A stretch of DNA of 64,000 bases, taken from positions 124,001 to 188,000 of the forward strand of contig NZ_QKNY01000004.1 in NCBI RefSeq assembly GCF_003605575.1. The letters run 5' to 3'. Made by a program: the position numbers and the translations under genes. The DNA is from Halonotius aquaticus. GTDB taxonomy: Archaea; Halobacteriota; Halobacteria; Halobacteriales; Haloferacaceae. The notes below the pieces were generated by a model. The model saw nothing but the letters and a program-made list of their open reading frames with translations. It searched no databases and was not told where the DNA came from. Position 1 is the stretch's first letter. Each line of letters starts with the position of its first letter. This document shows, one piece after another, positions 33,478 through 39,093 of this stretch.

Positions 33478-34238
33478 GCCGCCTTCGACGGATTCGTGCG
33501 GAGGCCGTTGCCGCGTGGCACTCCTTCCTCCGTCGCCGAACGGCGGTCTTCTTTACCTTCTTTTTCCCTGTCCTCCTGGTTGTGATCTTCGGCGCGCTTG
33601 TCCGCACCCAGCCGACCGACGGCGGGCTGTTTGCCGAGCCGGCAGCCTACTACATCCCCGGCTATCTGGCGACGGTGGTGCTGTTCACCCCGCTGTCCCG
33701 CGTCGGTAGTGAGATCGCCCGCCACCGCGACGACAACCGGTTTGAAAAGCTGGCGACGACACCGCTGGGACGTGGTGAGTGGCTACTTGCTCACACGCTT
33801 GTCAACGTCGCCATCATCGGTCTGGCCAGCCTGTTGATCCTTGGGTTGGTCGTCGTCTTAACGGGTGCTGCGGTACCGATCACTCCCCGGCTCGCGCTGT
33901 TGGGGCCGTTCATCGTGGGTGCGGTCGTGTTGTTCTGTGGCTTTGGGGCGATCCTCGGGCGGCTCTCCTCGACGCAGGACGGTGTCATCGCCGCCAGCAA
34001 CACGATCGCGTTTCCCCTGCTCTTTCTGTCAGATACATTCGTCACCCTCGAACTCCTCCCCGGTTGGTTTGCACCGCTTGTCGAACTCTCGCCGCTGACC
34101 TACTTCGCTCGCGGCGTTCGCGCACTCACGTACGGGCCGGCCATCGAGGAGTCATACGGGCTTGAACTGGCTGTGGTCGCGGTGCTGGCGGTTGCGTTCT
34201 TCGTCGCCGGTGCGTATGCGATCCCGCGAACTGACTGA
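33474..34238 (+). CDS. ABC-2 type transporter permease
   Basis: A 254-residue membrane protein with six predicted helices. Family marks are AWHSFLRRRTAVFFTFFFPVL at the first helix, RHRDDNRFEKLATTPLGRGE in the cytoplasmic loop, and LSPLTYFARGVRAL near the end. It forms the channel for the ATPase encoded just upstream, overlapping it by four bases. Export substrate is unknown. Confidence 0.9.
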   Translation: MSRLRRIRAEAVAAWHSFLRRRTAVFFTFFFPVLLVVIFGALVRTQPTDGGLFAEPAAYYIPGYLATVVLFTPLSRVGSEIARHRDDNRFEKLATTPLGRGEWLLAHTLVNVAIIGLASLLILGLVVVLTGAAVPITPRLALLGPFIVGAVVLFCGFGAILGRLSSTQDGVIAASNTIAFPLLFLSDTFVTLELLPGWFAPLVELSPLTYFARGVRALTYGPAIEESYGLELAVVAVLAVAFFVAGAYAIPRTD

Positions 34239-34318: not shown

Positions 34319-35899
34319 TCAGTTGAAGCTGAGTACGACGACGATGAGTAGGATCACCAGTATCGCCAGGGCAACGAGTCGCCCCATTGAGACGCCGGCC
34401 TCGGGCTCAGCGGTTGTCTCGGCTGCACTGTCAGCAGCTGCGTCGGCTGTGTCGGTGTCAGCCTCGCTTGCGCTGTCGCTGCCGCCTGCGTCGTCGGCGT
34501 CGTAGGTTCGTCGCGTGTCCCGAACCAGCGTGACTCGCACGTCGAGGTCGGCGGCGATCTCGGCGTTGGTTGCATCCGGATTCTCGGCGACGGCATCCAG
34601 AATCGACTCCTGGACGGCCGTCGGCTCGCCCGGGCCGGTGTCGATCGACGATTCGGTCGTCTCTTCGTCGGTGTCGTCGTCGAGATCCGAGCGCTCGAGA
34701 TCGGCGTAATCGTCGCGGGTGTCCCTGACAACCGGGATTCGGGCCCCCGTTTCGTCGGCGATCTCGGCGTTGGTCAACTCGGGATCCTCGAAGGCGAGTC
34801 GGAGGATCTCCGTCTGGAGGTCGCTTGGCTCGCCGGGCTCCCACTCCCTGTCATCGTCGCTGCTGGCACTGACTGTGCCGGCATCGTCGTCATCCGCATC
34901 GTCCTCCTCGATGGTACCTTGGCCACCGTAGTCGGCCGATTTGCCGGGCTCGTGTTCGACCCGAGTGTCCCGAACGATCGCCACGTGGGTGCCGGTTTTG
35001 GCAGCGATCTCGGCGTTGGTCAACTCGGGATCCTCTTGGGCGAGTTCGAGGATCGCCTGTTCGGTGTCGGTGAGCACACTCGCGTCGACGCCGGGCGGCA
35101 ACTCGCCGTCGTCGGCGGTTTCGATCCCGCCGCCGCTGCTGTAGTCGTAGTCGGCAAGCGTGTCCCGAACGAGCGGGACGCGTGCGCCGACCTCCGCGGC
35201 GATCTCACCGTACGTCCACTCGGGGTTGTCGGCGGCGACCTGTTGGATCTGTTCCTGAAGGTTACCGTCGGTCGAGCCGTCGTCGCTATCAGCCGACCCG
35301 CTGTCGTCGGCTGCTTCGCCCCCGAATTCGAAGCCGCCGTCGGCGTGTTCGCTGCGAGTATCCCGGACGAGTGTGACCCGCGCGCCGGTCTGTTCGGCGA
35401 TCTCAGCGTTGGTCAAGTCTGGATCCTCCTCGGCAAGCGCGAGAATCTCCTGTTGGCGGTCGCTGAGTTCGACCTCGTCGTTGCCGTCCGTCGCGTCACT
35501 GTCGTCCTCGTCGGCAGCCGGCTCGACGCCGACGTCGACTTGGTCTTCGTACTCGTTACGGACATCCCGGACGAAGGTGATTCGCTTGCCCGTTTTCTCG
35601 GCGATGTCGGCGTTTGTCGCGTCCGGATCGCGGGCTGCTGCTTCCAGCACCGCGAGCTGCGAGTCGGTGAGATCCGCGGCGTCGACATCGATATCAACCG
35701 CGTCGTCTGCGTCAGCGGCGTCGTCCGGGAGTTCGACCTGGTCTTCGTACTCCTCGCGGATATCCCGGACGAGGGCAACCCGTGTATCGGTCTGCTCGGC
35801 GATGTCGGCGTTTGTCGCCTCCGGGTCGCGCAGCGCGGCTTCGAGCACCGCCGATTCGGTGTCGCTGAAGGACGCTGAGTCGGTCGGTTTCTTCATCAT
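34319..35899 (-). CDS. Tail-anchored protein with seven tandem HTH-like repeats
   Basis: A 526-residue acidic protein with seven diverged copies of a 40-45 residue unit, at about residues 11-55, 78-120, 146-187, 213-252, 277-318, 360-400 and 428-467. The consensus is an opening helix (ILELAxEDP), then TNAEIAExTGxRV and VRDTRxEY. This matches a winged-helix/HTH pattern with TNAEIA as positioning helix and the following turn and VRDTR as recognition helix. Asp/Glu/Ser-rich linkers separate the units. The only membrane segment is at residues about 507-524 with two residues after it, so it is tail-anchored with the repeats in the cytoplasm. A GGGAGGGAG ribosome-binding site (minus strand, 35906-35914) supports the ATG at 35899. 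No known family name is recalled. DNA or nucleoid tethering to the membrane, or protein scaffolding, are inferences only. Confidence 0.8.
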   Translation of the reverse strand: MMKKPTDSASFSDTESAVLEAALRDPEATNADIAEQTDTRVALVRDIREEYEDQVELPDDAADADDAVDIDVDAADLTDSQLAVLEAAARDPDATNADIAEKTGKRITFVRDVRNEYEDQVDVGVEPAADEDDSDATDGNDEVELSDRQQEILALAEEDPDLTNAEIAEQTGARVTLVRDTRSEHADGGFEFGGEAADDSGSADSDDGSTDGNLQEQIQQVAADNPEWTYGEIAAEVGARVPLVRDTLADYDYSSGGGIETADDGELPPGVDASVLTDTEQAILELAQEDPELTNAEIAAKTGTHVAIVRDTRVEHEPGKSADYGGQGTIEEDDADDDDAGTVSASSDDDREWEPGEPSDLQTEILRLAFEDPELTNAEIADETGARIPVVRDTRDDYADLERSDLDDDTDEETTESSIDTGPGEPTAVQESILDAVAENPDATNAEIAADLDVRVTLVRDTRRTYDADDAGGSDSASEADTDTADAAADSAAETTAEPEAGVSMGRLVALAILVILLIVVVLSFN

Positions 35900-37407: not shown

Positions 37408-39093
37408 CTATTTACGACGATGCTCGTCGTCAGCCGTTGTGTTGGCCTCTCCTCCGGTCGATTCATTCGCGTCTGCAGTCGAGGTTGTACCACCAGGTTG
37501 CCCCTCCTCCTGTGCCACTGCTGACCATCCTGTCCGCTGGCGTCGCCGATCAGCCAGCGACGCTTGCAGGCGATCCCGCAACTCCGACCGGAGGCTGACG
37601 GCGTCGTCGACCTCGATGTCGACGGCGGCGGCGTCGTTGCCGAGCAGCGACAGCGAGCCTGCCGTATCGCCGATGACGGTGGCGACGCGCCATCGGCGTT
37701 GGAACAGCGTTCGACTATCGATAACGGTCTGCAGGCGGTGGTAGGGAACTCGTTTTGTCTCGCGGTTCCAGACGCCGTTTCGGGTGACGAAGTGGTCGGC
37801 ACCCAGCCGGTAGCCGCGATGGAGCCATTTGTAGTGGGCAGCGATCGGCGCGAGGAACACGCCCACTAGCGGGAGATACCACGGGAGGCCGGCGGCTGCG
37901 TCGATGACAACGCTGCCCGCATACAGCAGCCCGGTCACCGCAGCCAGTGCGATGAGATACCGCGCGAGATACCGCCGTCGAATCCGCTTTGGCGGCCGAT
38001 TGAACGCACCTGTCTCACAGCTGTCGATCTCCTCGGCCAACCGCCGGATCCGATCTTCGCCGGCGATCGGCACGGCGGCCTCGCTGCCGCGGTCGTTTGC
38101 CTGCCCTGGCGCGTAGCCCGCGGTTTCGACCGCCAGCGTCGCATACCCCGCCCGCCGCTTGAGGGGGTTGTCGCTGATCGTCACCGTCTGGATCTTCTCG
38201 AAGGGGATCGTTCCGCTGTATCGCTGGAGCAGGCCGCGCTCATACCGAAGCTCGGTTTCCGATCGCGTCAGTCGGAACCCCCAGTAGTTGACGACCGCCG
38301 AGATCGCGCCGACGACCCACGAGAGGACGACCAAGCCGACGAGCAACACCACACCCATGACGAACAACACGAGCGTCGGATCGAGCCCGGTGGTTGCGAC
38401 GGCTGCCGGTTCGGGAACGACCGGCGAGACAAACGGGATCGATCCCGTAAAGACCGCAAACAACAGCCCCGGGACGCGTGGATCAAACGAAAGGATCCCA
38501 GCCAACGCCAACTCGCTCGGCGAAATCTCAAACAGCAACTCCTCGTCGGGTTCGTCGAACTCGCGTGTCGCCGCGCTGTCGGTCGTTTCGCTGCCACCGT
38601 CAGCGGTGTCTCCCTCTGTGTCGTCGGCTGCCTTGGTGGCTGTGCGTCGCCGTTGGTTCTCTCTGCGCTTCCGTCGGCGGATCTCGTCTTGAATCGTTGT
38701 CGCCGCATCGGCGGTCACGTATCTGATCGCCGCCTCCGTCGAGCCGCCGCCGGCGGTTTCGAGGTTGATCGCCGACAGCCCGAGCAGCCGCTGGATGACG
38801 TTTCGGCTGATGTCGACGTTCTGCACCCGGCCGTAGGGGATCTCCCGCTCTCGGCGGTTGAGGACGCCGGATTCGATGTCGAAGGTGTCGTCGGTGAATG
38901 TGTACTGATACCGCTGGTAGTAGGCGAACTCGTAGGCGAGTGCCAGTGCGATGGCACCGCCGATCCCGGCAGCCACCAGCGCGCCACCAAAGCCGACGCC
39001 GGTGCCGACAGAGCCAAGAACGACAAGCGTAATCGCCAGCCGGCCGGCCTTCTGGAGGGCCCGATACGGCACCGACAGCGGGGCTAACTTCAC
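37408..39093 (-). CDS. Membrane protein with three bacterial PH (bPH2/YdbT-like) domains
   Basis: A 561-residue membrane protein. Three bPH2 modules are seen, each preceded by a hydrophobic pair: about 62-140 (YTFTDDTFDIESGVLNRRER, PYGRVQNVDIS), about 280-355 (RYERGLLQRYSGTIPFEKIQ) and about 440-500 (VTRNGVWNRETKRVPYHRLQ). It belongs with YdbS/YdbT proteins, which occur as pairs in many prokaryotes. Start overlaps the stop of the small PH gene upstream by four bases, so the two are a coupled operon. Function is not established; membrane or envelope homeostasis is suspected. Confidence 0.88.
   Translation of the reverse strand: MKLAPLSVPYRALQKAGRLAITLVVLGSVGTGVGFGGALVAAGIGGAIALALAYEFAYYQRYQYTFTDDTFDIESGVLNRREREIPYGRVQNVDISRNVIQRLLGLSAINLETAGGGSTEAAIRYVTADAATTIQDEIRRRKRRENQRRRTATKAADDTEGDTADGGSETTDSAATREFDEPDEELLFEISPSELALAGILSFDPRVPGLLFAVFTGSIPFVSPVVPEPAAVATTGLDPTLVLFVMGVVLLVGLVVLSWVVGAISAVVNYWGFRLTRSETELRYERGLLQRYSGTIPFEKIQTVTISDNPLKRRAGYATLAVETAGYAPGQANDRGSEAAVPIAGEDRIRRLAEEIDSCETGAFNRPPKRIRRRYLARYLIALAAVTGLLYAGSVVIDAAAGLPWYLPLVGVFLAPIAAHYKWLHRGYRLGADHFVTRNGVWNRETKRVPYHRLQTVIDSRTLFQRRWRVATVIGDTAGSLSLLGNDAAAVDIEVDDAVSLRSELRDRLQASLADRRRQRTGWSAVAQEEGQPGGTTSTADANESTGGEANTTADDEHRRK

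Follow-up and report, generated by a model that had tools for sequence, protein, structure and literature searches.

A Predicted Tail-Anchored String of Seven Wingless Helix-Turn-Helix Modules in Halonotius, Possibly a Tether between DNA and the Membrane

The stretch of DNA considered here, referred to as the window (64,000 nucleotides), is part of a 2.47 Mb genome of the genus Halonotius that is 98% complete. Its reverse strand harbors an open reading frame with an ATG start that encodes a protein of 526 amino acids (Table 1). The protein is built from seven copies of a 44-residue unit, which a unit profile finds at residues 7−58, 73−124, 141−191, 207−258, 272−323, 354−405 and 422−473 with scores of 72−84 bits per unit (n = 7). 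The units follow each other at a spacing of 65−82 residues and are joined by linkers of 21−38 residues with a net charge of −5 to −13. The linker between units 5 and 6 contains the sequence KSADYGG.GTI.EDD, possibly a short motif, which is kept in 5/5 Halonotius. A single hydrophobic segment is found at the C-terminus (Kyte-Doolittle mean 3.13 for the 19 residues from residue 508), and only one residue follows the predicted membrane helix.

Table 1. Features of the seven-module gene, in window positions
Feature	Position	Strand	Basis or remark
Gene for the tail-anchored seven-HTH-module protein	34319..35899	-	526 aa
HTH unit 1, residues 11-54	35738..35869	-	unit profile, alignment
HTH unit 2, residues 77-120	35540..35671	-	unit profile, alignment
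HTH unit 3, residues 145-188	35336..35467	-	unit modeled singly by AF2
HTH unit 4, residues 211-254	35138..35269	-	unit profile, alignment
HTH unit 5, residues 276-319	34943..35074	-	unit profile, alignment
HTH unit 6, residues 358-401	34697..34828	-	unit profile, alignment
HTH unit 7, residues 426-469	34493..34624	-	unit profile, alignment
Predicted C-terminal membrane helix, residues 505-525	34325..34387	-	AF2, hydrophobicity; tail hydrophobic in 9/9 orthologues
Longest inter-unit linker (units 5/6), 38 residues	34829..34942	-	Halonotius alignment
32-bp tract of unit 6 shared with 35004-35035	34758..34789		exact DNA match
32-bp tract of unit 5 shared with 34758-34789	35004..35035		exact DNA match

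In Pfam, the whole protein matches HTH_24 (E 4.9e-27), the family to which its units are assigned, and an HTH_AsnC-type family (1.7e-12). An AF2 model of unit 3, obtained as a 52-residue piece with 61 homologous units, displays three helices (7−18, 24−31 and 35−46) at a mean pLDDT of 81.6, with the core at about 90 or higher. No strands that could form a β wing follow helix 3 in this model, nor are any found in the full-length AF2 model, where the three-helix unit recurs seven times between low-confidence linkers, a helix spans residues 505−525, and residues 469−505, which precede this tail helix, are disordered (pLDDT <50). The full-length run was based on five sequences only and reached a pTM of 0.20, i.e., its inter-unit geometry is meaningless. 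A Foldseek search with the unit model ranked Lrp/AsnC-type HTH DNA-binding domains first (TMq about 0.6−0.75, best E 0.068), with FapR, Mos1, TFE and LuxR-type domains among the lower matches; the E-values are weak because the unit is small (50 residues). Comparison of the unit sequence profile with solved structures yielded weak matches only (best E 0.006). As modeled, the module is a three-helix HTH that is closest to the HTHs of Lrp/AsnC proteins and is wingless.

An earlier, sequence-only reading of the locus had described seven tandem winged-helix or HTH-like units, joined by acidic linkers and ending in a single membrane helix, and had raised the possibility of a multivalent DNA- or protein-binding string at the membrane. 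The unit profile, the Kyte-Doolittle analysis and the AF2 model bear out this architecture, and the seven HTH units are in line with multivalency; the tail anchor is supported by prediction and by its hydrophobicity in all nine orthologues. The HTH fold is corroborated by Pfam, AF2 and Foldseek, and the model of one unit shows the HTH arrangement of three helices rather than a non-HTH one. The attribute “winged”, on the other hand, is unsupported by the unit model.

The unit profile was used to search 171 genomes of the family, and an order-wide sample of 196 genomes was screened in addition. A seven-unit protein with a tail helix is present in 5/5 Halonotius and in 4/4 genomes of the sister genus, g70, and the repeat count is exactly seven in each of these nine orthologues (named records include H. 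roseus, H. pteroides, H. terrestris and the uncultured archaeon A07HN63). Outside these two genera, none of the 171 family genomes harbors a seven-unit protein, each gives at most a single unit match at E 1e-8, and the order-wide sample contained no further example. A mobile or viral origin was considered and found no match among plasmids, phages and IMG/VR. A role in antiphage defense was likewise set aside, as only short HTH overlaps were seen (in PADLOC, 26 residues with a CARF model). Rfam gave nothing in the 30−40 kb part of the window.

When the units of Halonotius are compared with those of g70, the pairing of unit i with unit i is the best of 5,040 pairings. Because the units match by position across genera, the seven-unit array is ancestral and older than the genus split, which rules out a recent origin in the window's genome. 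The 32-bp identity between units 5 and 6 (Table 1) was confirmed as an exact match that extends no further on either side. Identical codons are used throughout DPELTNAEI in these two units (for a single comparison of this kind, p is about 2e-3). The unit pairs 1−2, 3−5 and 5−6 have more codons in common than codon usage predicts. Judged from the codons, the identity goes beyond the effect of protein constraint by itself. In H. pteroides the 32-bp identity is found at the same place; the tract is therefore not recent to the window's genome, and it reflects a local exchange of sequence that took place no later than the split from H. pteroides. In the g70 genome G246 (L123:4208-5965), unit 7, together with its linker, reproduces unit 6 almost exactly, including a 54-bp exact tract at a 225-bp offset, and the total stays at seven. 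A “recent duplication or conversion”, as proposed from the sequence alone, is wrong for the array, whose unit positions are orthologous between the genera; a younger age holds for short conversion-like tracts only, most clearly in G246.

The modules are under purifying selection (dN/dS 0.16−0.32; gapped codons 0−1/308). Between the genera, dN is about 0.35 for modules vs 0.88 for linkers. In the closest species the linkers are constrained to a similar extent as the modules; in distant comparisons gaps accumulate in them, and they diverge at two to three times the rate of the modules.

A soluble paralogue is found in Halonotius (L007:4365-5513; L037, L038, L039 and L040), beside folD in the window's genome. 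Three genomes encode a form with six units and a fourth encodes one with three, while the corresponding region of the MAG G002 is broken into two ORFs with four and three units, probably as a result of a frameshift or an assembly error. The number of units is accordingly variable in the soluble paralogue (about 3−7) and fixed in the membrane form. Relatives with a single module and a C-terminal membrane helix (about 85−150 aa) are scattered over several haloarchaeal families. A single related module in another haloarchaeon forms a fusion with an Mrr restriction nuclease domain (L096:1917-2750, E 1.1e-7), and a further relative is fused to a PAS/histidine kinase. One HTH unit of the same family also occurs in a 759-aa Halonotius protein (L081/L097; G000 contig C5, unit 33523-33669) that combines an N-terminal domain lacking a clear Pfam match, which has further paralogues in the genus, with a long C-terminal coiled coil.

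In the five Halonotius species the gene is flanked by an ABC-2 exporter and a divergent KDPG aldolase. Both are absent at the one g70 locus tested, and their position probably reflects inherited gene order rather than a functional link. Two adjacent genes for bPH2-domain membrane proteins lie at 37408−39548 of the window, and their order with the locus is kept in several Halonotius.

The surroundings in g70 are of another kind. In three of the four loci (L095:4250-5410, L122:6240-7400 and L123:5960-6990) the seven-unit gene is divergent from orc1/cdc6, and the intergenic region on the orc1/cdc6 side, about 1 kb in length, contains five to seven opposed ORB-like repeats, TGTTTCACCGGAAACACGGTGTG. 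By analogy with haloarchaeal origins, this ORB-rich region is likely to be a replication origin. A gene adjoining three g70 loci was read as that of TBP. A numerical correspondence between repeats and modules was dismissed as coincidence, since two g70 loci have seven repeats and the third has five within the stretch analyzed. Single-module relatives with a C-terminal membrane segment are also divergent from an orc1/cdc6-like gene in two other lineages (L047:1999-3582 and L126:4327-5861); the distance is within about 250 bp in G039 and G271, and in G323 an orc1-like gene is located about 3 kb away. The other single-module loci examined have no orc1 alongside. With up to about 16 orc1 matches per sampled genome, the adjacency looks somewhat above expectation, but genes of both types may travel on mobile replicons, and we take the adjacency as a lead. 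A link to the origin was rejected as the main explanation because the same orc1 type in five other genomes has no unit match nearby, the Halonotius gene has no orc1 close to it either in the window or at the four orthologue loci, and orc1 does not adjoin the majority of the single-module relatives. A narrower proposal, in which haloarchaea would have a dedicated seven-valent tether between chromosome and membrane that was ancestrally linked to replication origins, draws on the divergent orc1 at three of four g70 orthologues and at single-module relatives of two other lineages; we regard it as unlikely.

No signal peptide was seen by eye in the 526-aa protein and a single residue follows the helix, from which we infer that the N-terminus and the modules are cytoplasmic. 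The best explanation is, in our view, that the protein is a cytoplasm-facing, multivalent tether between DNA and the membrane, to which we assign a probability of roughly 0.45. Its cytoplasmic part would be a flexible string of seven three-helix HTH modules, Lrp-like and wingless, anchored by the tail helix; each recognition helix would bind DNA weakly by itself, and the seven modules would jointly hold DNA at the membrane by avidity. Since a sensor domain is lacking and no part of the protein would lie outside the cell, the likeliest form is a constitutive DNA−membrane tether or a membrane-placed nucleoid organizer, and a role as a classic signal-sensing regulator is disfavored. The soluble paralogue could act at the same sites as a bridge or as a competitor.

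The Mrr nuclease fusion, the HTH folds and the basic residues of the recognition helix count in favor of a DNA tether, as do the exact count of seven units plus tail helix in 9/9 genomes and the stronger constraint on modules than on linkers. In 90 units, the turn and recognition helix hold 237/334 basic residues (71%) in 40% of the residues, but these units were selected on the Arg-Asp motif and the counts are not independent evidence for its invariance; the Arg-Asp pair of the recognition helix (unit positions 35−36) is invariant in the 61-unit profile alignment. The mean net charge of a unit is −6.6. Lrp-type HTHs of the same genome are likewise net negative (−2 to −6), and acidity alone is therefore no bar to DNA binding in a halophile; binding of DNA by the modules is plausible despite their charge. 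Nevertheless, the net acidity of the modules and the lack, in the model, of the wing of Lrp-type winged HTHs count against DNA binding, as does the invariant Asp of the recognition helix, an unusual residue for a DNA contact. The weak E-values from Foldseek and from the profile comparison with solved structures belong on this side as well. The conserved neighbors, i.e., the ABC-2 exporter, KDPG aldolase and bPH2 genes, give no pointer to DNA.

These same properties lend themselves to a protein-binding scaffold, in which the modules would recruit several copies of a cytoplasmic or HTH protein to the membrane without DNA. Contacts with proteins are a known role of HTH-type domains, and the negative charge, the invariant Asp of helix 3, the missing wing and the conserved KSADYGG.GTI.EDD linker motif would all fit. 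We nonetheless consider such a scaffold somewhat doubtful, because basic residues cluster on the recognition helix, a relative of the module carries the Mrr nuclease and the top fold matches are DNA-binding domains.

Eukaryotic membrane-tethered factors that are released by proteolysis offer a model for a further possibility, a dormant membrane-held transcription regulator whose string is cut near the tail helix and freed to act on genes. The single-pass tail after a long disordered stretch and the soluble paralogue with the same modules in the same genus are consistent with this idea. It is rather improbable, however, as no protease is found among the annotated immediate neighbors, a sensor domain is absent, the upstream region 35890−36200 contains no operator-like repeat and seven modules are more than a regulator requires. 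A one-component sensor in which a membrane signal alters DNA binding would share with ArnR the order of an N-terminal HTH and a C-terminal membrane segment (PMC6396743), but the anatomy, with one membrane segment, no sensor domain found and no outside loop, speaks against it and leaves it a very low probability. Neutral repeat expansion without function, for which local copying between units (units 6−7 of G246) might be invoked, is contradicted by the low module dN/dS, the near absence of module indels and the seven units in 9/9 genomes, and can practically be disregarded.

To our knowledge, the placement of the archaeal chromosome relative to the membrane is poorly understood. A string of DNA-binding-type modules, fixed in number and held on a tail anchor, would, if the tether model is true, be a simple and testable device; if protein is bound instead, it would be an unusual scaffold made of HTH folds. 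The strict count of seven in spite of copying between units is a question in its own right.

Among known systems, the Lrp/AsnC regulators share the HTH_24/HTH_AsnC-type module and provide the closest PDB folds. The present protein differs from them in having no wing, no RAM ligand domain, seven copies of the module and a membrane tail. RAM (AsnC_trans_reg) is absent from its Pfam matches, whereas an Lrp control from the same genome has it at 5.7e-11, and the 526-aa protein is not a member of the Lrp/AsnC family. Tandem wingless three-helix modules are also found in Myb-type HTH proteins, and a single C-terminal anchor in membrane-anchored plant MYB/NAC factors. The likeness is one of mode of working; these factors are eukaryotic, no sequence relation was found and the unit alignment has no conserved Trp of the regularly spaced Myb type. 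ArnR and ArnR1 of Sulfolobus are membrane-bound one-component regulators with an N-terminal HTH and a C-terminal anchor (PMC6396743); in ArnR a single HTH is combined with HAMP and sensor domains and with two segments in the membrane. What is common to both is the HTH with a C-terminal membrane anchor, a predicted helix in the present case; Pfam gives no HAMP or sensor domain match in the 526-aa protein, and AF2 gives one membrane helix where ArnR has two segments. The haloarchaeal single-module tail-anchored proteins likewise have a related HTH and a C-terminal membrane helix, but one module instead of seven, a patchy distribution and a recognition helix that mostly differs (CSASYVS.V.NR). 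HTH modules of this kind and membrane-held HTH proteins as a concept are thus already known; what appears to be new, with no description of a tail-anchored multi-HTH protein found in the open-access literature searched, is the conserved string of seven wingless modules on a tail anchor.
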